Shown: in pieces, positions 15,032 to 56,868 of the stretch
Layout of the letters: every line of letters starts with the position of its first letter
Position numbering within the stretch: position 1 is the stretch's first letter
Assembly: GCA_009910795.1 (NCBI GenBank)
Contig: VMEE01000022.1
Location: 1 to 64,000, forward strand
Length of the DNA stretch: 64,000 nt
Source: Dehalobacter sp. CP
GTDB taxonomy: Bacteria > Bacillota_B > Desulfitobacteriia > Desulfitobacteriales > Syntrophobotulaceae
Direction of reading: 5' to 3'
Position numbers and translations under genes: made by a program
The notes under the pieces: model-generated
Databases searched by the model: none
Told to the model about the DNA's origin: nothing
What the model saw: the letters and a program-made list of their open reading frames with translations, nothing else

Positions 15032-16537
15032 TTACAACAGGTACATTGTTGCCAGCAGGCCCGTAAGAGTCATAACGATAGCGTATGGCAGAGCCAGCTT
15101 TACCATTTCCAGGTAAGACAGGCGAATCAGCGGTGCAAGTGCAGAAGTCAAGATGAACAGAAACGCCGCCTGACCGTTTGGTGTGGCAACTGAAGGGATA
15201 TTTGTACCCATATTAATGGCAACTGCCAGCTTGTTATACTGCTCCAGCGCAATACCTCCGGCTTTAAATGCCTGCTGTGTTTCAGTCATATATACCGTGG
15301 CAACAAAAACGTTGTCACTGATTGCCGAAAGGACGCCGTTGGCCGTAAAAAAAGCGGCAAGCTGATTCTGTCCTTCGATGTTCAATACCCATTGAATAAT
15401 CGGCGTAAACAAATGCTGATCATGAATAACCGCAACGACGGCGAAAAATACGACCAGCAGCGCAGTAAACGGCAGCGCTTCTTCAAACGCATGACCGATG
15501 CGCTTTTCTTCAGTAACCCCGTTGAAGGCTGTAAGCAGGATAATAATCATCAGACCAATAATACCTACTTCCGCCAGGTGCAGTGCCAGGGAGAAGATCA
15601 GCACAACACCGCACAAAGCCATAACAATCAGGCGCACACGTCCGCGCATATTCCTGGCAGTATCTTTGACTTTTACATCATCTTCCATAACCTTTCGCAC
15701 AGACTCAGGAAGCTGGTAGCCGTACCCCCAGAACTTAGTAACTTCAAGGATAATGGTAGTCAGAAGACCAACGATCAATACCGGGATAGACACAGGGGCA
15801 CATTGTATAAAGAAATCTACGAAGTCCCATTGCATAATGGAGCCAATTAAGAGGTTCTGCGGTTCACCAACCAGTGTTATTGCTCCGCCCAGCGCAGTGC
15901 CCACAGCGCCATGCATCAGAAGATTACGCAGAAAACCACGGAACTCGTTCAGGTCCTCATGATGTTTTTCATCAACACTATGGTCGTGATTAATGTCATA
16001 CGTTTCGTATACTTTTTCGCTGGAAGCAAACTTGTGGAAGATGCAATAGAAACCATAGGCCACGGCGATAATCACTGCGGTTACGGTCAGCGCGTCCAAA
16101 AACGCGGAAAGAACCGCACCTAGAACAGCGAACAGGAATGAAAGCGCGACTTTAGAGTGTACTTTAGTAAGGAGCTTGGAAAACAGGTACACAAGACCTT
16201 CTTTCATAAAATAGATCCCGGCAACCATGAACATCAGAAGAAGAATAACCGGCAGGTTCATTTCAACCTCGTGATAGACCATATGAGGGTTAGTAAGTCC
16301 GAGCACAACGGCTTCAATCGCCAGAAGCCCACCGGCAGGAAGCGGATAACATTTTAACGCCATTGCCAAGGTAAAAATAAATTCGACAATCAACACCCAC
16401 CCGGTAACGTACATACCGGCGGTAACCATCAAAATTGGGTTTAACACCAAAAAAGCAAGAATTGTTCTTTTGTACCAGTCCGGAGCGTGACCCAGAAAAT
16501 TTGCTCTGAATGCTTGTCCGATGCCCATTTGTTTCAT
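15032..16537 (-). CDS. nhaB: NhaB-type Na+/H+ antiporter
   Basis: A 501-residue integral membrane protein that matches the NhaB family closely: FLGHAPDWYKRTILAFLVLNP, EFIFTLAMALKCYP, FMVAGIYFMKEGL, LSAFLDALTVTAVII, GGAITLVGEPQNLLIG and NMGTNIPSVATPNGQAAFLF. About 12 hydrophobic helices. It expels Na+ in exchange for H+. The start at 16537 follows AGGAGGATAGTACAT; the frame continues upstream to 16582 without a ribosome site. It is preceded by a c-di-GMP-I riboswitch, so its expression probably answers to c-di-GMP. NhaB is best known in Gram-negatives, so transfer is possible. Confidence 0.93.
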   Translation of the reverse strand: MKQMGIGQAFRANFLGHAPDWYKRTILAFLVLNPILMVTAGMYVTGWVLIVEFIFTLAMALKCYPLPAGGLLAIEAVVLGLTNPHMVYHEVEMNLPVILLLMFMVAGIYFMKEGLVYLFSKLLTKVHSKVALSFLFAVLGAVLSAFLDALTVTAVIIAVAYGFYCIFHKFASSEKVYETYDINHDHSVDEKHHEDLNEFRGFLRNLLMHGAVGTALGGAITLVGEPQNLLIGSIMQWDFVDFFIQCAPVSIPVLIVGLLTTIILEVTKFWGYGYQLPESVRKVMEDDVKVKDTARNMRGRVRLIVMALCGVVLIFSLALHLAEVGIIGLMIIILLTAFNGVTEEKRIGHAFEEALPFTALLVVFFAVVAVIHDQHLFTPIIQWVLNIEGQNQLAAFFTANGVLSAISDNVFVATVYMTETQQAFKAGGIALEQYNKLAVAINMGTNIPSVATPNGQAAFLFILTSALAPLIRLSYLEMVKLALPYAIVMTLTGLLATMYLL

Positions 16538-16620
16538 ATGTACTATCCTCCTAAGTGAAAATAAGATATAAAAAGAGAGCAATCCAAAATGGAACTACTC
16601 CCCCCCAGAAGTTCAAATTA

Positions 16621-16715
16621 CTTGCAGCCTGGCAGTCATAGCAACTTACAAGCAGCCTTAGACCCATAGCTTTAGCGTCCTTCACTTTCATGAAGTTTGC
16701 ACCAACCTGTACAAC
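16621..16715 (-). promoter_or_regulatory. Cyclic di-GMP-I (GEMM) riboswitch upstream of nhaB
   Basis: Read on the minus strand, the segment carries the GEMM-I hallmarks in order: GTGCAAAC at the start of P2, TTCATGAAAGTGAAG with a GNRA-like tetraloop, GGACGCTAAAGCTATGGG, TCTAAGG, and the distal CTGCCAGGCTGC of P3. It ends about 85 bases before the nhaB start. A G-rich run follows (CTGGGGGGGAG) that could take part in the expression platform. This is pattern recognition; no covariance search was done. Confidence 0.8.
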
Positions 16716-20386: not shown

Positions 20387-21247
20387 TTAGCATACTTCCT
20401 CCAGTAATATTTTTACCCAAATATTCATATCTTCAAAACCGCCGCAAATATGGCAGTTGTTGATTAGTCTACCCCGATACATATATCCCAGCTTGCTTAA
20501 AGACCTGTTGATTCCAAGATTGTTAGCTCTTGAAAGGCTATATGCTGTAGCAAATCCATTGCGTTTCAAGTGTGTTTCCAGTTGGAATATCAATTCGCTT
20601 AATATGTTTCTGCCTCTATACTTTGGATAAGTGGCGCAATCAGTTATTTCAGCGTTCATGTGTTGTTTGTCAAGATCCGCCGAAGCAATACTGATAATTT
20701 TCCCTTCTTCTTCCGCTACCATATACAAAATATGATCCTGCATGACTTTTTGAAGATACTCTCTGCTGAAAATAGGTGTTGGATAGGTTTCAAATGCCGT
20801 TTGAAAAAGCTGAATTATCTGGGGAATATCGTCCGGCACGGCCTGCCTCATCGTAAAGTTTTTATTCTTAGTCAGCTCGAATTTATTGGTATTCTTAACG
20901 CAATAATCGATAATTCTGTTTTCTTTCTCCTCATAGAGTGAATTTTTGCGCTTCGTATCAAGAAAAAGGGACATACAAGTTGCATCCTCTCCCTGAAAAA
21001 AACCGTCGATAACCCCCTCTGCTACAAACCCGCATTCCTCAAAGATACTAAGATCTTGTTTATAACAATTCGCAATAATCTTACCCAAATTTTCTTTTTT
21101 GGAATAATCAATAATCTCTTTGATTATCAACTCAGACAAAAGAGAATGACTCAATATTTTAAGCCTTTTATTGCGATAATCCACGTACATGTCCACACCC
21201 GAAAAGTTTGTATAGAAATTTTTACATTCGTCTTGATCTATATTCAT
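20387..21247 (-). CDS. ablB: Beta-lysine N-acetyltransferase
   Basis: A 286-residue protein with a C-terminal GNAT domain (about 140-285; YPKYRGRNILSELIFQLE is the acetyl-CoA loop region). Size and pairing with lysine 2,3-aminomutase identify AblB, which acetylates beta-lysine to N-epsilon-acetyl-beta-lysine, a compatible solute known from methanogens and some bacteria. The ATG at 21247 follows GGGAGGACTTCC and lies 26 bases inside ablA. Confidence 0.9.
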   Translation of the reverse strand: MNIDQDECKNFYTNFSGVDMYVDYRNKRLKILSHSLLSELIIKEIIDYSKKENLGKIIANCYKQDLSIFEECGFVAEGVIDGFFQGEDATCMSLFLDTKRKNSLYEEKENRIIDYCVKNTNKFELTKNKNFTMRQAVPDDIPQIIQLFQTAFETYPTPIFSREYLQKVMQDHILYMVAEEEGKIISIASADLDKQHMNAEITDCATYPKYRGRNILSELIFQLETHLKRNGFATAYSLSRANNLGINRSLSKLGYMYRGRLINNCHICGGFEDMNIWVKILLEEVC

Positions 21248-22505
21248 GGAAGTCCTCCCTCTTGTTAAGTCTTACGTTTGTACTTGGAATCAAGCACACT
21301 TGTTCATCTCTGTATAACTTTTCTAATCCCCGGTATTCTTTATTCTTGAATTTACCGCACGTGCCGCATTTTCGGCACTGGTGCGTTTTATCCCGAGGCT
21401 CGCTATACGTGCAAATTACACCTTCATAATTTCTAAGAATGACCTTTTCAGGGGAATATGAAATCAAGTATTGTGGATTGACCGGGATCTTCCCCCCGCC
21501 TCCAGGCGCATCTACTACAAACTGTGGAATAGCTAACCCTGATGTATGTCCACGCATCATTTCTATGATTTCAATCCCCACAGAAACCGGAGTTCTAAAA
21601 TGTTCAATTCCTTCTGAAAGGTCACACTGATAAAGGTAATATGGTCTGATTCTCGAGCTTACCAGTTTCTGAACCAAATCACGCATTATATAGGGGCAAT
21701 CGTTAATGTCTTTTAAAAGTACAGACTGGTTACCAATAGGTATTCCGGCATCAGCCAATTTTTCGCATGCTACCTTGGATTCAACTGTCAGTTCCCTGGG
21801 GTGGTTAAAGTGAGTATTCAGCCAAATTGGATGATATTTTTTCAGCATTTTGCAGAGCGTATCGGTAATTCTCTGAGGCATGACAACCGGTGTTCTTGTG
21901 CCTATCCGTATTATTTCCACATGTTTGATTTCTCGTATTGATCTTATAATTGCTTCCAGCCTTTCATCAGAGAGGCATAAGGCATCTCCACCCGACAAAA
22001 GCACATCCCTGACTTCTTTATGCACTTTAATATAATTGATTGCCCGATTGATATTATCAAGGGAAAGTGCCTTATCCTCATAACCGGCAAATCGTCTTCT
22101 GGTACAGTGACGGCAGTACATTGAACACTGATCAGTAATAAGCAAAAGCACCCTATCAGGATATCTGTGCGTAAGACCGGGAATTGGCGAGTCAGCTGTT
22201 TCATGCAGCGGGTCACTACTATCAAACTTGGATATTTTGGTTTCATGAATCGTTGGAATTGCTTGCCGTCTTGCCGGGCAATGTTCGTCATTTGGATCCA
22301 TAAGTGTAGAATAGTAGGGCGTTATTGCCATACGTAATTTTTTTAGACTTACCGCCACTCCCTGACGCTCATCCTGGGTAAGGTTGACTACTTGTTCCAA
22401 TTGATCAATTCTTGTGATTCTGTTGGAAATCTGCCACTTCCAGTCCTGCCACTGTTCTTCTGTTACATTTTTATATAAGGGTATATCCCTATAATTTCTT
22501 TGCAT
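21222..22505 (-). CDS. ablA: Lysine 2,3-aminomutase
   Basis: A 427-residue radical SAM, PLP-dependent enzyme that turns L-lysine into beta-lysine. The SAM cluster motif is CSMYCRHC (C127, C131, C134) followed by TRRRFAG; DVLLSGGDAL and the C-terminal zinc-type HQCRKCGTCGKF are also present. The start at 22505 is chosen for AAGGGGGAATTAAATAAT and gives the usual N-terminus of this family. First gene of the abl-opu operon, directly behind a ydaO riboswitch and terminator. Confidence 0.95.
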   Translation of the reverse strand: MQRNYRDIPLYKNVTEEQWQDWKWQISNRITRIDQLEQVVNLTQDERQGVAVSLKKLRMAITPYYSTLMDPNDEHCPARRQAIPTIHETKISKFDSSDPLHETADSPIPGLTHRYPDRVLLLITDQCSMYCRHCTRRRFAGYEDKALSLDNINRAINYIKVHKEVRDVLLSGGDALCLSDERLEAIIRSIREIKHVEIIRIGTRTPVVMPQRITDTLCKMLKKYHPIWLNTHFNHPRELTVESKVACEKLADAGIPIGNQSVLLKDINDCPYIMRDLVQKLVSSRIRPYYLYQCDLSEGIEHFRTPVSVGIEIIEMMRGHTSGLAIPQFVVDAPGGGGKIPVNPQYLISYSPEKVILRNYEGVICTYSEPRDKTHQCRKCGTCGKFKNKEYRGLEKLYRDEQVCLIPSTNVRLNKREDFHEYRSRRM

Positions 22506-22567
22506 ATTATTTAATTCCCCCTTCAGATTCTTAATTGAGGATTGCCTCCTCAATATTTAAGGTATAT

Positions 22568-22599
22568 AAAACAAAAAGCTGCAGAGAAGTATCTGCAGC
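22568..22599 (-). terminator. Riboswitch-linked terminator before ablA
   Basis: GCTGCAGA (22578-22585) pairs with TCTGCAGC (22592-22599), followed on the minus strand by TTTTTGTTTT. It stands between the riboswitch and the ablA start, so c-di-AMP binding probably favours termination. Confidence 0.85.
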
Positions 22600-22639
22600 A
22601 TATGCCAAAAATATAAACCTAAACTAAAGGTGTAATTAA

Positions 22640-22782
22640 GCATATCAATCACCTTCTCTTCCAACGCTTACGAGATTAGCTGACGGATTCGGGTCGAAAG
22701 AGCTAACCCTACCAAAGCACCCGCTTTGGATTCACCCCTATTGTTTGGGTCTCCCGTTCCATATGGATTCAGCGTTTAAATC
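22640..22782 (-). promoter_or_regulatory. Cyclic di-AMP (ydaO-yuaA) riboswitch
   Basis: On the minus strand the conserved ydaO elements follow in order: AACGCTGAATCC, ACGGGAGACCCAA, GGGGTGAATCC, GGTAGGG, CTCTTTCGACCCGAATCCGT, and CAGCTAATCTCGTAAGCGT. These are the classical consensus pieces of the c-di-AMP riboswitch, an OFF switch for osmolyte and potassium genes. It controls ablA-ablB-opuAA-AB-AC here. Confidence 0.93.
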
Positions 22783-23132
22783 TATTCAGTTATTTGTTGT
22801 CTTAAAAAGAATAAATAGAGGCGGATAGCTATACCAATATTTGGTAGCCTCCCACCCCAGAGCCCGCTTCTCTTGAAAATGGTAATAACCATTCCAACCG
22901 AAACTAACCTTATTAAATTTAACAATGTCTCTTACATTCAGTTAAGTAAATCAAAGATGATTAACTTATTTATTAATATAACATAAGCCTAATCGCCTGT
23001 CAATTAAATATGCCAATATTTGGAGTAACACTTAAGCATCACGTAATCATTTAACATCTACTTGTCACGTTAAATACCGTTTATTGTTATGTTTGATTAT
23101 TCGATATAGCAGGGTTTCAGATTAGTTTTGGT
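22783..23132. other. Leader and promoter side of the abl operon, no gene
   Basis: Non-coding. A hairpin-forming segment (GAGGCGGATAGCTATACC with TTGGTAGCCTCC, about 22816-22852) lies just upstream of the riboswitch on the same strand. I do not see a clear promoter. Confidence 0.4.
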
Positions 23133-47950: not shown

Positions 47951-49138
47951 TTACCTATTTTGTTTATCTGACGGATAATTTCCGAGCATCTGGAAGTAAG
48001 CGCTCTCTTTCTCGATCCCCTCAACGGCTTTCTTGACCACACGATTATTCAGATTACCCTCGAAATCAATATAGAAGAGATATTCCCAGGTCTTATCCGT
48101 CATCGGCCGGGATTCGATCTTCATCATATTCAGCCCGTTGCGGGCAAAGTGACTGAGGACCCTGTACAATGAACCGGGTTCATGGGAAATGGCGACAACG
48201 AGACTGATCTTGTTACACGCACCTCTAAGCTCAGGTTTTCTGCCGATGATGATAAACCGGGTGAAGTTCGCCGGATTATTGTTGATCTTTTCGGCCAGAA
48301 TGTCCAGGCCATAGAGCTCCGCCGCTCGCCTGCTCGCAATGGATACCAGGGCTTTCGAGCCTGCATCGGCAACTTTCTTGGCACTTACCGCGGTATTGCT
48401 GCAGGTTACCTGGTTCCATTCGGGATGTTTTCTTAAAAAAATACTGGACTGCTGAAAACCCTGGGGATGGGAGCATACTTCCCTGATATCTTCGAGCTTT
48501 GTTCCTTTAACCGCCAGCAGGTTATGATCGATCTGGATACATTTTTCACCGACGATATAAAACCCAAACTGACAAAGCAGGTCATAGACGTCGGCAATAC
48601 CGCCGGTAAACGAATTTTCCAGCGGAAGAACCCCGTAATCAATCTCTTCTGCAGCCAACGCCTGAAACACATCTTCAAAGTTCACATAATTCTTGGCATT
48701 CTTGCCTTCCCCGAAATATTCCTTAAGCGCCTGTTCACTATAGGAACCCGGAATTCCCTGGAACCCGATCACATTTCCGGAAACACATTTCCCCAGTTCT
48801 CCGGTTTCCGACTCCTCTTCAATTTCCGAAATTTCCTGCCAGGAACCGGTTTCTGGCCTAAAAAAGCGTTCAGCCTGAACACCTTTACTAATACTCATGA
48901 CGGCTTTGAGGAATTCTTCTGCAGTTTTAACTAGATCCTTGTTTTTGACCTGCTCAATTTTTTGCAGGACTTTATTCTCCCTGGATTCATCCAAGATATT
49001 AATGCTGTTCAAAATCTTATATTCAGCTACCTCAATGACGGTCTCCATTCTTGCTTCAAAAAGACGAAGCAGCTCGGTATCAATTTCATCTATCTTAGAC
49101 CTGAGGTCCTGTAGTCTCCGATTTTTTAGTTCATCCAC
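47951..49138 (-). CDS. pheA: Chorismate mutase/prephenate dehydratase (P-protein)
   Basis: A 395-residue bifunctional enzyme of phenylalanine synthesis: AroQ chorismate mutase (1-85, LRSKIDEIDTELLRLFEARM), prephenate dehydratase (about 115-290, GIPGSYSEQA; VLPLENSFTGGI; SNTAVSAKKVADAG) and ACT domain with the ESRP motif (HFARNGLNMMKIESRP). Start: GTG at 49138 behind GGATGGGGTAAC, overlapping aroC by 13 bases; the frame upstream of it is aroC sequence. Last gene of the aromatic operon. Confidence 0.94.
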   Translation of the reverse strand: MDELKNRRLQDLRSKIDEIDTELLRLFEARMETVIEVAEYKILNSINILDESRENKVLQKIEQVKNKDLVKTAEEFLKAVMSISKGVQAERFFRPETGSWQEISEIEEESETGELGKCVSGNVIGFQGIPGSYSEQALKEYFGEGKNAKNYVNFEDVFQALAAEEIDYGVLPLENSFTGGIADVYDLLCQFGFYIVGEKCIQIDHNLLAVKGTKLEDIREVCSHPQGFQQSSIFLRKHPEWNQVTCSNTAVSAKKVADAGSKALVSIASRRAAELYGLDILAEKINNNPANFTRFIIIGRKPELRGACNKISLVVAISHEPGSLYRVLSHFARNGLNMMKIESRPMTDKTWEYLFYIDFEGNLNNRVVKKAVEGIEKESAYFQMLGNYPSDKQNR

Positions 49139-50223
49139 GTTACCCCATCCTTTTCTATCATCAAGTCCAATAAGGCCAGTGCAGCGGCGCTTTCTACGAC
49201 AGGAACCGCCCGGGGGACGATGCAAGGGTCGTGTCTTCCCTGAACTGTGATTTGCGTCTCTTCCCTGGCGGCCATATTCACCGTCTGCTGCACTTTGCCG
49301 ATCGAAGGCGTCGGTTTCACGGCAGCCCGGAATATCAAAGGCATGCCATTCGTGATCCCTCCAAGGATTCCGCCATTGTGATTGGAAAGCGTCACCACTT
49401 TATCTGTGAAAGCGAATGGATCATTAGCTTCAGACCCTTTCATCTGCACAATTGCAAACCCAGCGCCGAATTCGACTCCCTTCACCGCCGGAACAGCAAA
49501 CAGCAGATGGGCAATTTTGCTTTCAGCTGAATCAAAGAATGGCGACCCCAAGCCGACAGGCAAACCTGCTACCGCTGTTTCAATCACGCCGCCGACAGAG
49601 TCCTCCTCGGCTTTGGCCTGAAGAATTTTCTGTTTCATCCGGGTACCCGCTTCTTCGGACAAAACTGGGAATTCTTGTTCTGTCAGTTCACGGAGTAGAC
49701 CTGAATCAATTCGAAGGTCATCAAAACGATCCTCTCCAATACCACCGATATTTAAAATATGGCTGCCAATCACAATGCCCTTCTTTTCCAGGATTTGTTT
49801 GGCAATGGCTCCAGCCAGCACCAATGGTGCAGTTAGTCTGCCGGAAAAATGGCCTCCACCCCGGTAATCGTTGAAGCCCCTGTGTTTTACCATCGCGGTA
49901 TAATCCGCATGGCCGGGCCGCACCGTGTCTTTCAATTCGCAATAATCCCCGGAGTGCTGATCCTTATTCCAGATCACACAGCAGAGCGGGGCTCCGGTCG
50001 TAAATCCATGAAAGAAACCACTCAGGATTTCAAATTCGTCTTTTTCTTGCCGCGGGGTTGAAAGCGCGTTCTTCCCCGGTGCCCTTCTGGCCAGTTCCCG
50101 GCTGATGAAGGGCAAATCGAGCTTTAATCCCGCCGGCAGACCATCGAGCACGATCCCGATGCATTTTCCGTGTGATTCCCCAAACAGCGATAGTTTAAGG
50201 GTTTCACCCCATGTTCCACTCAT
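49126..50223 (-). CDS. aroC: Chorismate synthase
   Basis: A 365-residue FMN-dependent enzyme that makes chorismate from EPSP. Signatures: GESHGKCIGIVLDGLPAG, RQEKDEFEILSGFFHGFTTG, KHRGFNDYRGGGHFSGRLTA and GRHDPCIVPRAVPVVE. It overlaps the aroA end by 20 bases with GGAGGTAGAGCTG as ribosome site. Confidence 0.96.
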   Translation of the reverse strand: MSGTWGETLKLSLFGESHGKCIGIVLDGLPAGLKLDLPFISRELARRAPGKNALSTPRQEKDEFEILSGFFHGFTTGAPLCCVIWNKDQHSGDYCELKDTVRPGHADYTAMVKHRGFNDYRGGGHFSGRLTAPLVLAGAIAKQILEKKGIVIGSHILNIGGIGEDRFDDLRIDSGLLRELTEQEFPVLSEEAGTRMKQKILQAKAEEDSVGGVIETAVAGLPVGLGSPFFDSAESKIAHLLFAVPAVKGVEFGAGFAIVQMKGSEANDPFAFTDKVVTLSNHNGGILGGITNGMPLIFRAAVKPTPSIGKVQQTVNMAAREETQITVQGRHDPCIVPRAVPVVESAAALALLDLMIEKDGVTWMN

Positions 50224-51499
50224 CAGCTCTACCTCCCAATTTGCAAAAATCCTGCCAGAAATGCGGATATGATTTTTTGACGGCTTCGGCTCCGGTCAGA
50301 AACACAGGCTCTGTACACCTGATGGAGGCCACAGCCATAGCCATCGCGATCCGGTGATCGTTCCAGCTGTCGACGGTTCCGCCATGCAGGGTTTCTACCC
50401 CTTCGATGAGGAGCCCTTCCTGCAGTTCCTGAATCCTGGCCCCAAGCTTGTTCAGCTCTGATGCCGTTGCTTTGAGTCTGTCCGATTCTTTGATCCGGAG
50501 TCTTCCAGCATTAATGATTCTGGTTGTGCCTTTGCTTAAAGAAGCCAGGACTGCAAGCACAGGTACCAGATCCGGACACTGTCCGGCATCAATTACCATT
50601 CCCTCAGTCGGACCACCCAGCACTTCTAGATTGTCATCTATCCAATAAATTCGGGCACCCATCCCCAGCATCATATCAAGAATCGCCCTGTCCCCCTGCA
50701 GGGACCGAGCATTTAGATCCAGACATTTCAGACCGGACCCCAGTGTACCTGCCACCAGCCAGAACGCAGCCTGGGAGTAGTCTCCTTCAATGCGGCAATT
50801 AATTGCCTTATACCGCTGCTTTCCTGGAATAAGAAATTCCCGGTAGGCGTTGTTTTGTACGGTTATTCCCGACTTTTCCAGCGCATTAATAGTCAGGTCA
50901 ACATAACCGCGGGATTCTAGTTCCGTTGTAACGACAATTCTGGAATCTCCGTCCAAGAGCGGCAGCAAAAACATAAGTCCTGTAATAAATTGAGAGCTGA
51001 CATTGCCTTTCAGTTTATACTCACCCGGTGAAAATCTCCCTTTGATCGTCAAGGGCAAATATCCGTCCCGGGTCTGATATTCAATTCCGTGCAGTTGAAA
51101 CAGCTCATAATATGCGTCCAGGGGGCGCTCCACCAGCTTGCCGGCACCGGTAAAGGTCACCGGGCCTCCTGTCAGTGTGGCCAGCGGTATCAGAAATCTC
51201 AGCGTAGATCCGGATTCCCGGCAGTTGATTGTTTCCTGCGCGATTTGAAGCTTCGGGTTCCCTTCCAGCCAAAGCGCGCCTGGTTCACCAGGGTTCGCCG
51301 AGACTTCCCCGACGGTTGTACCCAGAGACACCAGCCCGTCCAAGGTTGCAGAAATATCTTCAGAAAAAACAAGATTGTCAATGCTGCTGGTCCCTTCAGC
51401 CAGCGCGGCGCAGATGACTGCCCGGTGACTGATGCTTTTAGAAGGAGGTATCCTGATCTCCCCGGTTAAAGTTGAAGGTTGCAAGCGTAAGCACGTCAA
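50204..51499 (-). CDS. aroA: 3-phosphoshikimate 1-carboxyvinyltransferase (EPSP synthase)
   Basis: A 431-residue enzyme with PPSKSISHRA (PEP/shikimate site), NCRESGSTLRFLIPL and RIKESDRLKATASEL. It joins PEP to shikimate-3-phosphate. TTG start at 51499 behind AAGGAGAGATTTTC, 12 bases after tyrA. Confidence 0.96.
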   Translation of the reverse strand: MTCLRLQPSTLTGEIRIPPSKSISHRAVICAALAEGTSSIDNLVFSEDISATLDGLVSLGTTVGEVSANPGEPGALWLEGNPKLQIAQETINCRESGSTLRFLIPLATLTGGPVTFTGAGKLVERPLDAYYELFQLHGIEYQTRDGYLPLTIKGRFSPGEYKLKGNVSSQFITGLMFLLPLLDGDSRIVVTTELESRGYVDLTINALEKSGITVQNNAYREFLIPGKQRYKAINCRIEGDYSQAAFWLVAGTLGSGLKCLDLNARSLQGDRAILDMMLGMGARIYWIDDNLEVLGGPTEGMVIDAGQCPDLVPVLAVLASLSKGTTRIINAGRLRIKESDRLKATASELNKLGARIQELQEGLLIEGVETLHGGTVDSWNDHRIAMAMAVASIRCTEPVFLTGAEAVKKSYPHFWQDFCKLGGRADEWNMG

Positions 51500-51511: not shown

Positions 51512-52366
51512 TTAAAACTTTTCTCTGCCCCGACCGGCATTCTCAAGCATTTGTTTCAGCGAATCCCGATCCTTTTCTGCGACCGCCGTTCGGATCATCC
51601 GGACGTTTTCGATGAACACGTCAATTTGTTCTAAAATATTGTCTTTATTCTCGAGTAGAAGTTCACTCCAGAGCTCGGCATTCATTCTCGCGACCCGTGT
51701 TGCATCGCGGAAGCTGCCTCCGACAAAGCTGCCGGTATCCTCAGCACAGGAACTGTTCATCAGGGCGGCCGCAATGACATGCGGAAGTTGACTTGTCAGC
51801 GCAATTATTTCGTCATGTTTATGCGGTTCCATTCGGATCGGCTGTCTGCAGCCGAGACCAAGAATCAACCTTTCCACCAGTCTCAAGCTTTCATTCTTCG
51901 TGCCGTCGATTGGGGTAATCAGATAGTTGGCCCCCCGGAAAATCTCTTCAGAAGCATAGGCAAATCCGCTGGATTCTTTGCCAGCCAGCGGATGTCCCCC
52001 GACGAAGCTCAAATCTTCCCTTAAGACTGAACTAATCTCCTGAACGACTTGTTCTTTGAGTCCTGCCGTATCTGTAATCAGGGCACCGTGTTTAAAATAG
52101 GCCAGGTTGTCTTTCACAAACTGAACGGCAAGCTCCGGATAGATGCAGATCACAACAATATCCGAGCTTTGCAGCGGGATGCTTGCCTCCGTGAATCCTT
52201 TGCTGATCACACCCATTTTTTCTGCTTGTTCCAGCACGCTGCTGTTAACATCGACTGCCCAGATTCTCTTTGGTTTTAGTTTATTCAAAGCCATGGCGAA
52301 TGATCCGCCAATAAGTCCCAGACCCACCACCGTAATTTCCATACTACCAAAGTCCGGTTCTTCCAA
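51512..52366 (-). CDS. tyrA: Prephenate dehydrogenase
   Basis: A 284-residue NAD-dependent enzyme of tyrosine synthesis: VVGLGLIGGSFAMAL (nucleotide binding), TDTAGLKEQVVQEI, FVGGHPLAGKESSGF, LTSQLPHVIAAALMN. TTG start at 52366, eight bases after TGGAGG; the GTG at 52375 lies inside that site and is less likely. Confidence 0.93.
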   Translation of the reverse strand: MEEPDFGSMEITVVGLGLIGGSFAMALNKLKPKRIWAVDVNSSVLEQAEKMGVISKGFTEASIPLQSSDIVVICIYPELAVQFVKDNLAYFKHGALITDTAGLKEQVVQEISSVLREDLSFVGGHPLAGKESSGFAYASEEIFRGANYLITPIDGTKNESLRLVERLILGLGCRQPIRMEPHKHDEIIALTSQLPHVIAAALMNSSCAEDTGSFVGGSFRDATRVARMNAELWSELLLENKDNILEQIDVFIENVRMIRTAVAEKDRDSLKQMLENAGRGREKF

Positions 52367-52396
52367 GAAATCCACCTCCAGGGATCATCTCATTGA

Positions 52397-53410
52397 TTAA
52401 ATAATCTTGTTCTGTATAACCGCCAGCTGTCTCAGTGAGTCCATTAAAGCCTGAAATTTCTCCGGTTTGATAGACTGCTGCCCGTCACATTTAGCATTGG
52501 CCGGGTCGTTGTGCACTTCGATCATGACACCGTCGGCACCTACGACCATTGCTGCTTTAGCCATCGGTTCGACAAGCCACCACAGCCCTGCCGCGTGGCT
52601 TGGATCAACAATAACCGGAAGGTGACTCAGTTTCTTGATCACCGGCACAGCAGTCAGGTCAAGCGTATTTCGGGTGTAATTTTCGAAAGTCCGGATGCCT
52701 CTTTCACAGAAAATAACATTCTCGTTGCCATGCGCCAGAATATATTCCGCAGCGAGTAATAATTCCTCAATGGTCGAGGATAACCCTCTTTTTAGAATCA
52801 CCGGTTTTTGAATTTTTCCGACTTCTTTTAAGAGTTCAAAGTTCTGCATATTGCGGGCGCCGATCTGAATAATATCCACATCTTCAACGAATCTCTCCAG
52901 ATATTCGGTCGACATTAATTCCGACACGATTGGCAGTCCTGTCTTTGCCCTGGCTATTTTCAAAAGTTCCAGGCCATCCTCTCTTAAACCCTGAAAGCTG
53001 TACGGTGAGGAACGCGGCTTAAAAGCGCCGCCTCTTAAAAAAGCAGCTCCGGATTCCTTAACCGCTTCGGCAATGCCGACAATTTGCGTTTCACTTTCTA
53101 CCGAACACGGACCGGCAATCACAGCAAAGGTATCGCCGCCGATTTTTCTGTCCCCGACACTGATGACCGTATCTTCCGGGTGGAATAAACGGTTAACCTT
53201 TTTAAAAGGCTCCTGAACATGAATGACTTTTTCAACATAATCATTTGCATGCAGCGTGTCCGGGTCAATGCTGCTGGTATTCCCGATCAATCCAAGAATA
53301 TGGTAGTTCACGCCTAAAGACTCATGAACCTCACATCCCAGGTCCAATATCTTCTGTTTCATCTTCGCGATCTCCTCTGGTGGCGTCTTCGGCCTCATTA
53401 CAATAATCAT
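52397..53410 (-). CDS. aroF: DAHP synthase, AroA-beta type with N-terminal regulatory domain
   Basis: A 337-residue 3-deoxy-7-phosphoheptulonate synthase, the first step of aromatic synthesis. Residues 1-70 form the ferredoxin-like N-terminal domain of the Thermotoga type (MIIVMRPKTPPEEIAKMKQK); the barrel shows VIAGPCSVESETQI, RGGAFKPRSSPYSFQGL, QIGARNMQNFELL, KRGLSSTIEE and VDPSHAAG. First structural gene of the operon; it lies behind a leader-peptide attenuator. Confidence 0.95.
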   Translation of the reverse strand: MIIVMRPKTPPEEIAKMKQKILDLGCEVHESLGVNYHILGLIGNTSSIDPDTLHANDYVEKVIHVQEPFKKVNRLFHPEDTVISVGDRKIGGDTFAVIAGPCSVESETQIVGIAEAVKESGAAFLRGGAFKPRSSPYSFQGLREDGLELLKIARAKTGLPIVSELMSTEYLERFVEDVDIIQIGARNMQNFELLKEVGKIQKPVILKRGLSSTIEELLLAAEYILAHGNENVIFCERGIRTFENYTRNTLDLTAVPVIKKLSHLPVIVDPSHAAGLWWLVEPMAKAAMVVGADGVMIEVHNDPANAKCDGQQSIKPEKFQALMDSLRQLAVIQNKII

Positions 53411-53463: not shown

Positions 53464-53503
53464 GAATAAAAACAGAAGGCTCATTATTTCTAATGAGCCT
53501 TCT
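53464..53503 (-). terminator. Attenuator terminator of the aromatic operon
   Basis: TAATGAGCCTTCT/AGAAGGCTCATTA stem (53474-53486 with 53491-53503, 13 pairs, 4-base loop) followed on the minus strand by GTTTTTATT. It stands between the leader peptide and aroF. Its 5' arm (GCTCATTAG in RNA) is also complementary to CTAATGAGC at 53583-53575 in the leader, an antiterminator pairing. Confidence 0.9.
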
Positions 53504-53545
53504 TTAACAGTATCGTATTTCAACTTCGGTTTCTCTCGACCGGGG

Positions 53546-53716
53546 TCAGGCCGCAAGGCAATTTCCCGCCGGATGCTCATTAGTGAAGAGAGAAAGTATT
53601 CTATTGTAGAACAACCAAAAATAACCGGTGCTAAAATAAAAGTAATAATAGCACTGGCTAAAGCTTCTAAACACAAAAGTATTGATTTGTTCTAGCATTC
53701 TCTTACCGCTAAGCAT
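53546..53716 (-). CDS. Aromatic-rich leader peptide of the aro operon
   Basis: A 56-residue reading frame from ATG 53716 (ribosome site GGAG eight bases upstream) to TGA 53546. Residues 22-37 read CYYYFYFSTGYFWLFY: 11 of the 15 residues after Cys22 are Tyr, Phe or Trp. This is the mark of a leader peptide for transcription attenuation: ribosome stalling at aromatic codons when charged tRNA is scarce would free the downstream CTAATGAGC to pair with the terminator arm and let transcription enter aroF. It precedes exactly the genes for Phe and Tyr synthesis. Not a T-box: no AGGGTGGNACCGCG is present. Confidence 0.88.
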   Translation of the reverse strand: MLSGKRMLEQINTFVFRSFSQCYYYFYFSTGYFWLFYNRILSLFTNEHPAGNCLAA

Positions 53717-53790
53717 TTTACATTCTCCAAAAAGTTACTTTCGAGTTCTGTCCATTATACCGTATAGATTCTTTGGCTGTCAAACGAAAA

Positions 53791-54486: not shown

Positions 54487-56868
54487 ATGAATATTTTACG
54501 GGAAAAAATTCAAAAAAAACAAATTTATTATCTTGCCAGCCTAATATTTATTTTAATCGGGCTCGTTTACTTCTTTTCCTGCTTTCAGCGCCCTTTTGTC
54601 GGTTTAGATATGAAGAACTCCAGCGGTCAGTGGTATGTGGTTAGTGCCAATCAAAATGGAGAAGGGTATCAATTGGGTATCCGGGTTGGTGATCAGATCC
54701 TTAAAATCAATTCGCAGGATGCGGGAGACTATCACCTGTTAAAGAAATGGGGGCTGGCCGAAGGCGCTCATAGTATCAGTTTTTCTGCTAACAATAATAC
54801 AACAGTACAGACTTTTACTATAGAAATTCTGCCTGCTTACCAAACGATATTTATACTTCCATATTTCATACTTGGGTTTATTTTCTGGTTCCTGGGATTT
54901 ATAGCCTGGTTGAAACGTCCTTTTTTAGTACAGGCCCGTGCTTTATTTTGGTTAAATTATTTCATTGGTTTAGCCATTCTTCTATCTCAAGCTTCCAGCC
55001 GCGCGTTGTTTCTAGGTAAAGAATTGCAGTACATCGCTTTTTTACTGACCGCAGTAGCCTTAGTTTATTTTTTCTCAATTTTTTCGGAAGGAAATAACAC
55101 GAAGGTTAATCAATTAGGCTGCAAACTTGTAACAGTTCTTGCCGTAGTATTTTTTATACTACTCGGTATACATGCCATATGCTTTTTCAGTCTTTCAAGT
55201 TATTTGGTTAAACTGGCATTATTTACGATGATTATCAGTATTTTATTTGTTGTGGTTAACCTGATTCTATTAAAATCGTCAAAAGATCAAGCAGCGAAAA
55301 ATGAAGCAAATATTATTCTCTTAGGGTTACTGATTGGCTTCTTGCCTTTTTTTCTTTTTACAGCGCTGCCTGCTCTTTTTGATTTTAAGCAATTGGTTTA
55401 TAGTTATGTAGATTCATTTTTTGCCCATTTATTGATTTCAGCTGTACCCTTCTCTCTCTACTTTGTAGTTGTTAATAAATATCTCCCGGATTACCGCCGG
55501 ATTTACGAAAGATTCATTATTTGTATTATCTCGTCGGTTTCTCTTAGCTTTATCTCGTTGTTAATCTTTTATATTTTAAAAATTGTGCCTTCTATCACGT
55601 TTGAAGTCTATATAGAAATGTTTTTCTTAATTTTTATCCTGATTGTTTGTTCATATTATCTCCAGATTATTTTAAGTAAACTATTTAAAAAATCAGGTTT
55701 TCTTCAGGAAAAGCAGAGCTTCAAACAAAGGATTGAGGAATTAAACGAGAATCTGACATCCCTGATTGCCGATGATCAAATACTCATAGAAATGGCCCAA
55801 AATCTTGAAATTGACGGGATTTTCCTTGTTACTGATAATGTCCATTTTCGTGGTCTCAATAAAGCTGTTGGCCGTTTCCAAGAGAATCTTGTTGAACGTG
55901 AAATATTGGAAGAATATTTTAACAACCATAACAAACTTGATATGGAAACGAAAGTACTTGCGGATGATTTTCCCGCTGAAGTTTTTGTTCCTTTTTCGTC
56001 TCATAATTCAGCATGCGGCGTTTTTTTCGGCCACCGCTTTTCAAGAATTAAGTTTATCCAGTCAGAATTATCTTTTCTGACGCTTCTTGCGGGTCAGCTG
56101 GTTTATCAATTACTGATATTAATTGTGATCAATGGCCTTAATAAAGAATTAATTGTGTTAAATGAACGTATAAACGATACGAAAACAATAAGCGAAACAG
56201 AAATAGAAAATACTATTCCCCCAAATTTTGTATATTCACTTTTTGCAAATATGAATAATCAAGATCGTCTGATTCCTAAATTATTAACCGGTCCGTACCA
56301 CTATATTCTCGATCAATACAGTTGGCTGGACTACTTGCAAAGAAAGAATTTACCGGAAAGTGTAAAACAGCAAACGATGCTGAAAATTGGGGAAATCGAC
56401 CGAGATATTAAGTTTGAAATTTTAGCAAAAATTGATAAGCGGAACCCGCCATTGTTAGATAAGTCAGGGCTATTACCAACTATTGAATTGTGGATTCAGG
56501 ATTTCATGCGTGAGGAATTGGCTTTAATCATTCTCAATACTTTTGGAATAGACAATAGCAATCGTTTTGATAAGCAAATTGAAACCGTAGCCTTTCGCTT
56601 TATCGAAAAAGGAATCATTAACGCCCTGCGGTATTCAGAGTCCCATGTATTTAAAGTTGATATTATTCTCATAAAGAATATTTTAGAAATCATAATCTGC
56701 GATAATGGTAAAGGATTTGATGTAAATGAACTGGAAACCTGGCTTATTTCCGGTGCTCATTCGGGTTTGGCTGTCATGAAGGAACGTATTGAAAGTGTTG
56801 GCGGACAATTGAAAATCACTTCACAAATAAATAAAGGGACAACACTAAAAGCAATTTTTCAAGTATGA
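54487..56868 (+). CDS. ComP-like multi-pass sensor kinase lacking the usual phospho-acceptor His
   Basis: A 793-residue protein. First helix (13-33), extracellular PDZ-like domain (about 38-112, GYQLGIRVGDQILKINSQDA), seven or more further helices to about 400, a GAF-like linker, then a histidine-kinase end. The ATP-binding boxes are kept: EKGIINALRYSES (N box), DNGKGFDVNE (G1) and SGLAVMKERIESVGGQL (G2). In the dimerisation helix the usual R-x-L-H-D-G-P is replaced by NNQDRLIPKLLTGPYHYIL: Leu stands where His is expected. The PDZ plus multi-helix layout is that of ComP. No response regulator follows. It may signal without autophosphorylation or use another His (PYHY). Confidence 0.75.
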   Translation: MNILREKIQKKQIYYLASLIFILIGLVYFFSCFQRPFVGLDMKNSSGQWYVVSANQNGEGYQLGIRVGDQILKINSQDAGDYHLLKKWGLAEGAHSISFSANNNTTVQTFTIEILPAYQTIFILPYFILGFIFWFLGFIAWLKRPFLVQARALFWLNYFIGLAILLSQASSRALFLGKELQYIAFLLTAVALVYFFSIFSEGNNTKVNQLGCKLVTVLAVVFFILLGIHAICFFSLSSYLVKLALFTMIISILFVVVNLILLKSSKDQAAKNEANIILLGLLIGFLPFFLFTALPALFDFKQLVYSYVDSFFAHLLISAVPFSLYFVVVNKYLPDYRRIYERFIICIISSVSLSFISLLIFYILKIVPSITFEVYIEMFFLIFILIVCSYYLQIILSKLFKKSGFLQEKQSFKQRIEELNENLTSLIADDQILIEMAQNLEIDGIFLVTDNVHFRGLNKAVGRFQENLVEREILEEYFNNHNKLDMETKVLADDFPAEVFVPFSSHNSACGVFFGHRFSRIKFIQSELSFLTLLAGQLVYQLLILIVINGLNKELIVLNERINDTKTISETEIENTIPPNFVYSLFANMNNQDRLIPKLLTGPYHYILDQYSWLDYLQRKNLPESVKQQTMLKIGEIDRDIKFEILAKIDKRNPPLLDKSGLLPTIELWIQDFMREELALIILNTFGIDNSNRFDKQIETVAFRFIEKGIINALRYSESHVFKVDIILIKNILEIIICDNGKGFDVNELETWLISGAHSGLAVMKERIESVGGQLKITSQINKGTTLKAIFQV

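Follow-up and report, generated by a model that had tools for sequence, protein, structure and literature searches.

What controls the aroF-tyrA-aroA-aroC-pheA operon of this Dehalobacter genome? In the window, by which we mean the whole 64-kb stretch of DNA that was analysed, the operon is preceded by a short reading frame rich in aromatic codons and by an intrinsic terminator (Table 1). The original prediction took these parts for a leader-peptide attenuator, and its proposal of leader-peptide attenuation with an antiterminator formed by strands 2 and 3 is strongly supported by the conservation and covariation described below. Judged by comparison of sequences, the locus very probably carries a ribosome-mediated transcription attenuator that controls the operon by reading the charging of tRNA-Phe and tRNA-Tyr jointly. 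The individual parts named in the prediction stand, but a conserved in-frame hairpin (P1) and a further pairing strand (strand 1) had been overlooked.

Table 1. Positions in the window of the leader elements and operon genes.
Feature	Position	Strand	Basis or detail
Promoter, TTGACA-18-TATAAT	53754..53783 (boxes 53783-53778 and 53759-53754)	minus	12/12 consensus positions
Ribosome-binding site of the leader ORF, GGAG	53725..53728	minus	sequence; 8 nt before ATG
Leader peptide ORF	53716..53546	minus	ATG start, 56 codons; homologous leaders in 14/14 loci (L001-L014)
Strand 1 (AUGCUUAG), pairs with strand 2	53709..53716	minus	duplex -10.2 kcal/mol, p 0.037 in the window
P1 hairpin in the coding run	53624..53658	minus	GCCAGUGCUA (53658-53649) pairs with UAGCACCGGU (53633-53624); control codons form the loop
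Control codons, CYYYFYFSTGYFWLFY	53606..53653	minus	codon density; loop codons 343/355 Phe or Tyr in the family
Strand 2 (CUAAUGAGC), antiterminator 5' strand	53575..53583	minus	2:3 pairing tests
Strand 3 (GCUCAUUAG), terminator 5' arm, partner of strand 2	53490..53498	minus	2:3 pairing tests
Intrinsic terminator	53464..53503 (stem 53503-53474; strand 4 in the 3' arm; U tract to 53464)	minus	13 pairs
aroF, DAHP synthase (B. subtilis type)	52397..53410	minus	NF006421, 498 bits, above cut-off
tyrA, prephenate dehydrogenase	51512..52375	minus	NF005107, E 1.2e-56, under model cut-off
aroA, EPSP synthase	50204..51499	minus	TIGR01356, above cut-off
aroC, chorismate synthase	49126..50223	minus	NF003793, above cut-off
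pheA, chorismate mutase-prephenate dehydratase fusion	47951..49225	minus	NF008865, above cut-off

The leader and its relatives

The predicted gene order agrees with the NCBIfam matches, those of tyrA lying under the cut-offs of its models; residues 38-117 of the pheA fusion also match TIGR01805, under its cut-off. These identities indicate that the operon serves phenylalanine and tyrosine. The 56-codon frame, its ribosome-binding site and the strong terminator ahead of aroF were all found as described. The consensus promoter came from a scan in which 1.0 looser match is expected by chance, and similar boxes lie upstream of the relatives' leaders as judged by eye. Translation of the leader ends in ...FRSFSQCYYYFYFSTGYFWLFYNRILSLFTNEHPAGNCLAA. 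Its 12-codon stretch YYYFYFSTGYFW holds nine aromatic codons and is the sole stretch with that many among the 77,134 stop-free 12-codon windows of the whole 64 kb, making the run noted in the prediction the densest in the window. A divergent large ORF with a histidine-kinase-like C-terminus (54487-56868, plus strand) adjoins the leader.

No Rfam 15 family exceeded its gathering threshold at the locus or at 15 related loci; the best sub-threshold match at the locus had an E-value of 1.3, and no match to the T-box (RF00230) was found there. Elsewhere in the window, on the minus strand, a Na+ riboswitch (22846-22899) is closely followed by a c-di-AMP riboswitch (22649-22784), and the tandem precedes the osmolyte genes ablA (lysine 2,3-aminomutase) and ablB (beta-lysine acetyltransferase) (20387-22899 in all). 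The gene for the sodium/proton antiporter NhaB is immediately preceded by a c-di-GMP-I riboswitch (16620-16711), likewise on the minus strand (15032-16711 in all).

Comparison of aroF upstream regions from relatives, along the lines of the check proposed with the prediction, yielded both a conserved aromatic run and switching stems. Among 30 relatives' loci, all of the first 14 (L001-L014) carry a homologous leader with 7 to 9 aromatic codons in 12. Recognizable leaders with 5 to 8 such codons occur at L016, L018, L020 and L021, and the leaders of L022 and L019 have five and six. L015 keeps the terminator, but its aromatic run is thin (some 4 codons in 12, judged by eye), and no convincing leader was found at L017 or at L023-L030, L026 being cut at a contig end. 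At least 8 aromatic codons in 12 were present in 40 of 104 aroF upstream regions, in none of 635 regions upstream of other long ORFs at the same loci, and in 0.17% of shuffles; at a looser threshold of 6 in 12 the counts are 65/104 and 27/635. The set of 104 omits two duplicates (L031, L032), a near-copy of the window (L001), L026 and three short regions.

The P1 hairpin and the amino acids sensed

The window's P1 forms 9 of 10 pairs around YYYFYF codons. In a MAFFT alignment of all members (A1) the 5' strand of P1 was misaligned; 25 sequences were realigned with MAFFT, structure not being used (A2), and from these a covariance model of the aromatic core, R1, was built. On A2, 90.3% of cells in P1 were paired, compared with at most 40.0% when the strands were slid. 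Among 101 distinct matches, an alignment whose fitting to R1 favours the figures, the seven modelled pairs were formed in 93.8% of cells, a share that fell to 43.7% or less once the strands were shifted by one to three columns. Changes on both sides of a pair filled 36 cells in the same 101 sequences versus 10.1 +/- 2.5 in shuffles, and affected five of the seven pairs versus 3.3 in shuffles, a value equalled or exceeded in 20 of 500 shuffles. When 3' strands were permuted among sequences, the observed 313 of 390 paired cells stood modestly above the permuted 301.9 +/- 3.5, the excess being small because P1 strands are alike between sequences; shuffling of codons gave 246.2 +/- 5.4.

These changes leave their mark on the peptide. 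In L007 and L008 a C-G pair has become G-C and Cys...Ser has become Trp...Thr, and in five matches (L258, L264, L249:13437, L251:1363 and L267) a Gly codon is replaced by Asp together with a change from C-G to U-A. The loop behaves in another way: in 98 distinct sequences, 175 Phe and 168 Tyr codons account for 343 of 355 loop codons, and none encodes Trp. Of the 355, 350 have T or A at position 2 and 351 have T or C at position 3. The other two frames give Phe or Tyr in only 85/257 and 101/257 codons, and therefore it is the code itself that is selected, not U-richness alone. The model's frame is free of stops in 104 of 106 core matches. As read from these alignments, the codons of the P1 stem follow the RNA pairing and those of the loop follow the coding. 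Here and below, family counts of loop codons, terminators, and 2:3 and 1:2 pairings omit two out-of-frame matches (L261, L263) and one lacking aromatic-gene context (L249:1222).

The original prediction had the operon reading all three aromatic tRNAs, tryptophan included, and this is the likeliest of the alternatives to the joint Phe and Tyr reading, though its probability is low. Chorismate feeds tryptophan synthesis too, the window's leader has one Trp codon, and at least one occurs in 68 of the 106 core matches. However, of the 104 matches read in frame 36 have no Trp codon, and in 60 of the 68 that do it is codon 4, in the 5' strand of the P1 stem rather than among the loop codons; the other in-frame matches have Gln (22), Leu (18), Arg (3) or Pro (1) at this position. 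Among 14 leaders (the window and L002-L014), Cys or Ser takes the place of the window's own Trp (in FWLFY) in 8. Moreover, trpE-like genes stand behind a T-box in two genomes of the same genus, G003 and G005, the G005 protein having been matched to NCBIfam over its first 300 residues and the G003 protein being alike by eye. T-box matches number 12 to 15 per genome in five genomes of the genus (E <= 0.001, some under cut-off). The sequence evidence thus points to Phe and Tyr as jointly sensed and to Trp as dispensable, and the claim of a three-tRNA sensor is left without support.

A conserved, covarying hairpin that overrides the peptide, as where Gly yields to Asp with the change from C-G to U-A, is also what would be expected of a small-molecule riboswitch or a protein-bound RNA, in which P1 and the switch sense Phe, Tyr or a protein directly and the U-rich RNA gives rise to the aromatic codons incidentally. 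We consider this very unlikely given the stop-free frame and the Phe and Tyr content of the loop. A start codon with a Shine-Dalgarno sequence was also found in 95 of 102 members (the best-scoring start was picked, which favours this count), and in our judgement P1 is too small for a typical aptamer.

Nascent peptides such as TnaC and SecM arrest the ribosome, and the leader motif FSxGxxFSAGYF, conserved across genera, might do so on binding free Phe, Tyr or an intermediate. This too has a very low probability in our estimate. Phe and Tyr are freely interchangeable in the leaders, and the conserved non-aromatic residues change together with compensatory bases in P1, so that their conservation is explained by RNA pairing.

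Strand pairing and a proposed switch

The attenuator reading predicts that the leader can also pair with the terminator. The latter (-20.3 kcal/mol, z -6.1) is the only terminator-like site between 53380 and 53900, where shuffled sequences average 0.2, and 102 of 103 family members have a terminator at most 150 nt from the leader stop. As predicted, the nine leader bases CTAATGAGC (53583-53575) pair perfectly with GCTCATTAG (53498-53490) in its 5' arm. Taken alone this 9-bp match is borderline, and it is convincing because it is conserved. In a shuffle test passed when at most 10 of 200 shuffles reach the longest complementary run (the window scores exactly 10), 23 of 38 loci passed at p <= 0.05, the 38 being the 39 of a first set less L021, for which no terminator was found. 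In a second set of 37 loci, fetched after the pattern had been noticed and including one (L184) with the same leader as L044, 18 passed, and in every one of the 37 a terminator lay no more than 140 nt from the stop.

Scored by duplex energy, 63 of 102 members reach p <= 0.05, and 39 fail singly, the window among those that miss this level. Matched duplexes average -13.74 kcal/mol, compared with -10.64 +/- 0.28 when terminators were exchanged among loci. The members are related, so p-values overstate their independence; exchange controls are the better guide, with kinship still in them. Pairing persists where both sequences have been replaced, as in L018 (CUGCUGAG:CUCAGCAG), L204 (UCUUUCUAAGG:CCUUAGAAAGG), L190 (AAAGCUCGC:GCGAGCUUU) and L208 (GUUAUCAA:UUGAUAAC). 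A possible hairpin that would bridge strand 2 and the terminator (in the window, UUUCUCUC:GAGAGAAA) looked conserved by eye in the family, though we make no claim for it.

A simple two-state scheme, in which a ribosome at the stop codon masks strand 2, fails in the window, where the stop lies 26 nt past strand 2; it does fit loci such as L018, L182 and L187, where the stop follows within a few bases. Strand 2 has a second potential partner, strand 1, found close to the start codon and some 12-25 codons ahead of P1 (19 in the window). The first test with fixed windows gave p <= 0.05 in 8 of 27 loci; an earlier version, in which strand 1 was sought anywhere in the 90 nt preceding P1, gave a weaker result (7/27 by energy). 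Within the window's family only 2 of 11 loci, the window itself and L006, reach this level. Family-wide, at the 63 loci where strand 2 is clear (the window not among them), matched 1:2 duplexes average -11.39 kcal/mol versus -7.49 +/- 0.34 for mismatched ones, with p <= 0.05 in 26 of the 63.

Nineteen chosen loci were folded in three states. With a ribosome at the last aromatic codon, 13-27 nt upstream of strand 2, the probability of the 2:3 pairing before arm 4 is made was 0.85-0.99. With a ribosome at the stop, strand 2 fell inside the footprint in three loci, whereas in the others it was taken up by pairing with the leader's 5' part (0.40-0.99). When no ribosome was present, 2:3 prevailed over 1:2 ahead of arm 4 synthesis at 12 of the 19 loci (0.71 versus 0.19 in the window), and therefore termination is not predicted for those 12 loci when the leader is untranslated. 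Once all arms were present the probability of 2:3 was below 0.5 in 17 of 19 loci (0.00 in the window); as the terminator outweighs 2:3 at equilibrium, antitermination would have to be kinetic, with the antiterminator forming first.

From the features computed here (the ORF, the codon run, the terminator, and the covarying P1, 1:2 and 2:3 pairings across genomes), we infer ribosome stalling, read-through, a pausing role for P1 and a response to Phe and Tyr. RNA polymerase would start near 53750, judging from the promoter, and transcribe the leader. If Phe or Tyr is short, the leading ribosome would stall in the run of aromatic codons, open P1 and stand between strand 1 and strand 2. Strand 2, 25 nt past the last aromatic codon of the run, would then be free to pair with strand 3 as soon as the latter is made; the terminator (3:4) could not form, and the operon would be transcribed. 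If both amino acids are sufficient, the ribosome would pass strand 2 and reach the stop 26 nt further on, permitting 1:2 to pair behind it and 3:4 ahead of it, whereupon transcription would end; in some relatives, the ribosome at the stop would cover strand 2 directly. Strand 1 might also be covered by a ribosome that is initiating, or waiting in a queue, at the start codon.

The geometry suggested by this scheme is unusual in that strand 1 lies behind the stalled ribosome, which would act by separating strands 1 and 2. Coupling of transcription and translation is thought to be loose in bacteria of this kind, and P1 probably slows the polymerase so that the ribosome keeps step. To a simple finder, P1 with the U-rich codons that follow it resembles a terminator or pause site in L008, L009, L014 and L019.

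Distribution of the leader and comparison with known systems

Within the window's class, R1 matched 23 of 82 genomes at E <= 0.01 (19 of them at E <= 1e-5). Strong matches occurred in 17 of 25 genomes of the window's family, in 2 of 45 of a sister family (f2) and in none of 12 others. Larger searches, run with stricter filters that may miss weak members and with a subset of matches examined, found the leader in the class that includes Clostridium magnum (53 of 393 genomes, E <= 1e-4), in the class to which a Phascolarctobacterium genome belongs (Negativicutes; 50 of 150) and in the window's phylum (16 of 299, with four from the window's genus); matches below about 30 bits are mostly chance (L219-L225). 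On this evidence from sequence matches, the leader family occurs in many anaerobic Firmicutes, spanning the window's genus and family, Clostridia and Negativicutes.

A DAHP synthase gene lies downstream in 40 of 53 examined matches, including eight re-fetched loci of the first set, and in 35 of 46 of a further set. Ten of the remaining 24 precede other genes for shikimate, Phe or Tyr synthesis, two of them by likeness only: aroB (L187), shikimate/homoserine-kinase-like (L210, and L212 by likeness), tyrA-like (L202), aroA (L228), aroE (L254), prephenate dehydratase (L253), tyrA (L260) and shikimate kinase (L249, and L251 by likeness). Most of the scores for downstream genes fall under whole-protein cut-offs because only the first 136-200 residues were tested. 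The genes downstream of L214:478 (at 1e-3) and L250:4699 (at 1e-10) matched no family, L145 is at a contig end, L248:6518 has no downstream ORF, and the last ten matches are weak or lack aromatic-gene context. That the ORF, with its promoter, ribosome site and terminator, is an ordinary small protein or toxin gene unrelated to aroF regulation is extremely improbable, given its placement before aroF and other shikimate genes across classes, the aromatic loop codons, and a strand 2 that is complementary to the terminator and covaries with it.

Some genomes carry several copies, before different shikimate-pathway genes or close together, as in C. magnum (G083), which has four (L168, L210, L211 and L212), and at L248, L249 and L250 from the Negativicutes search. 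Fourteen aroF loci (L065, L067, L068, L072, L073, L078, L084, L086, L087, L088, L092, L101, L102 and L107), from metagenome-assembled genomes of Clostridia and from Brachyspira, have a leader ORF with at least 8 aromatic codons in 12 and no R1 match at E <= 0.01, many with a terminator after the leader. These are candidates for a second class without P1, or for degenerate members.

A wider picture, to which we give somewhat less than an even chance, is that of an old and widespread family of Phe/Tyr attenuators in Firmicutes, governing in some species much of the shikimate-Phe-Tyr regulon, with the ribosome as a wedge between strands 1 and 2 and with P1, together with the U-rich codons after it, as an intrinsic pause signal by which the polymerase is held level with the ribosome. 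Should P1 indeed cause pausing, the leader offers a natural system for gauging the extent of transcription-translation coupling in Firmicutes.

Leader-peptide attenuation itself is an old kind of system, already known in Firmicutes for other amino acids. The original prediction was fair in remarking that most descriptions of such attenuation concern Proteobacteria, but the remark needs qualifying, as leader-peptide attenuators for His are reported in Firmicutes, including Clostridia, in the portions consulted of two articles (PMC2965389, PMC9413887). Those leaders differ from the Phe/Tyr leader in having His codons, his or hisS genes downstream and lineage-specific motifs, and the same portions contain no Phe/Tyr system (PMC2965389, PMC9413887). 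A Leu-rich attenuator peptide is named in the title of a report on Staphylococcus aureus (PMC5794164). In the open-licence literature we found no description of the family beyond one possible relative, the uORFC-13-1 motif. According to the excerpt consulted, this motif, represented by 24 sequences from Acholeplasma and environmental sources only, lies upstream of aroF with a uORF encoding at least one Phe and a proposed role in attenuation (PMC8632094). Compared by description only, it resembles the Phe/Tyr leader in its uORF with Phe codon or codons before aroF, its extra hairpin and its adjacent terminator, and could be related to it (PMC8632094, same excerpt). A proposed riboswitch family of Lactobacillales, likened by description only, is another cis-regulatory RNA that precedes an aro operon in a Firmicute. 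A 2003 study by Panina and colleagues reportedly treats aromatic regulation in low-GC Gram-positive bacteria and could contain related predictions.

The Phe/Tyr leader is a likely answer to how Phe and Tyr synthesis is controlled in many Clostridia and Negativicutes, and the present analysis provides a covariance model and a directly testable switch. It also shows T-boxes and a leader-peptide attenuator occurring together within single genomes. T-boxes likewise control amino acid genes in these organisms by sensing uncharged tRNA; T-box leaders need no ORF, and the Phe/Tyr leader locus has no T-box match. A close parallel in logic is with the enterobacterial pheL, trpL and his leaders, which combine codons for the end product, mutually exclusive 1:2, 2:3 and 3:4 pairings, and a terminator before the biosynthetic genes, as does the Phe/Tyr leader. 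In leaders of the E. coli trp type, strand 1 overlaps the control codons, whereas in the Phe/Tyr leader it is situated at the start codon, and the codons are enclosed by P1, a separate conserved hairpin that distinguishes this leader from its enterobacterial counterparts.
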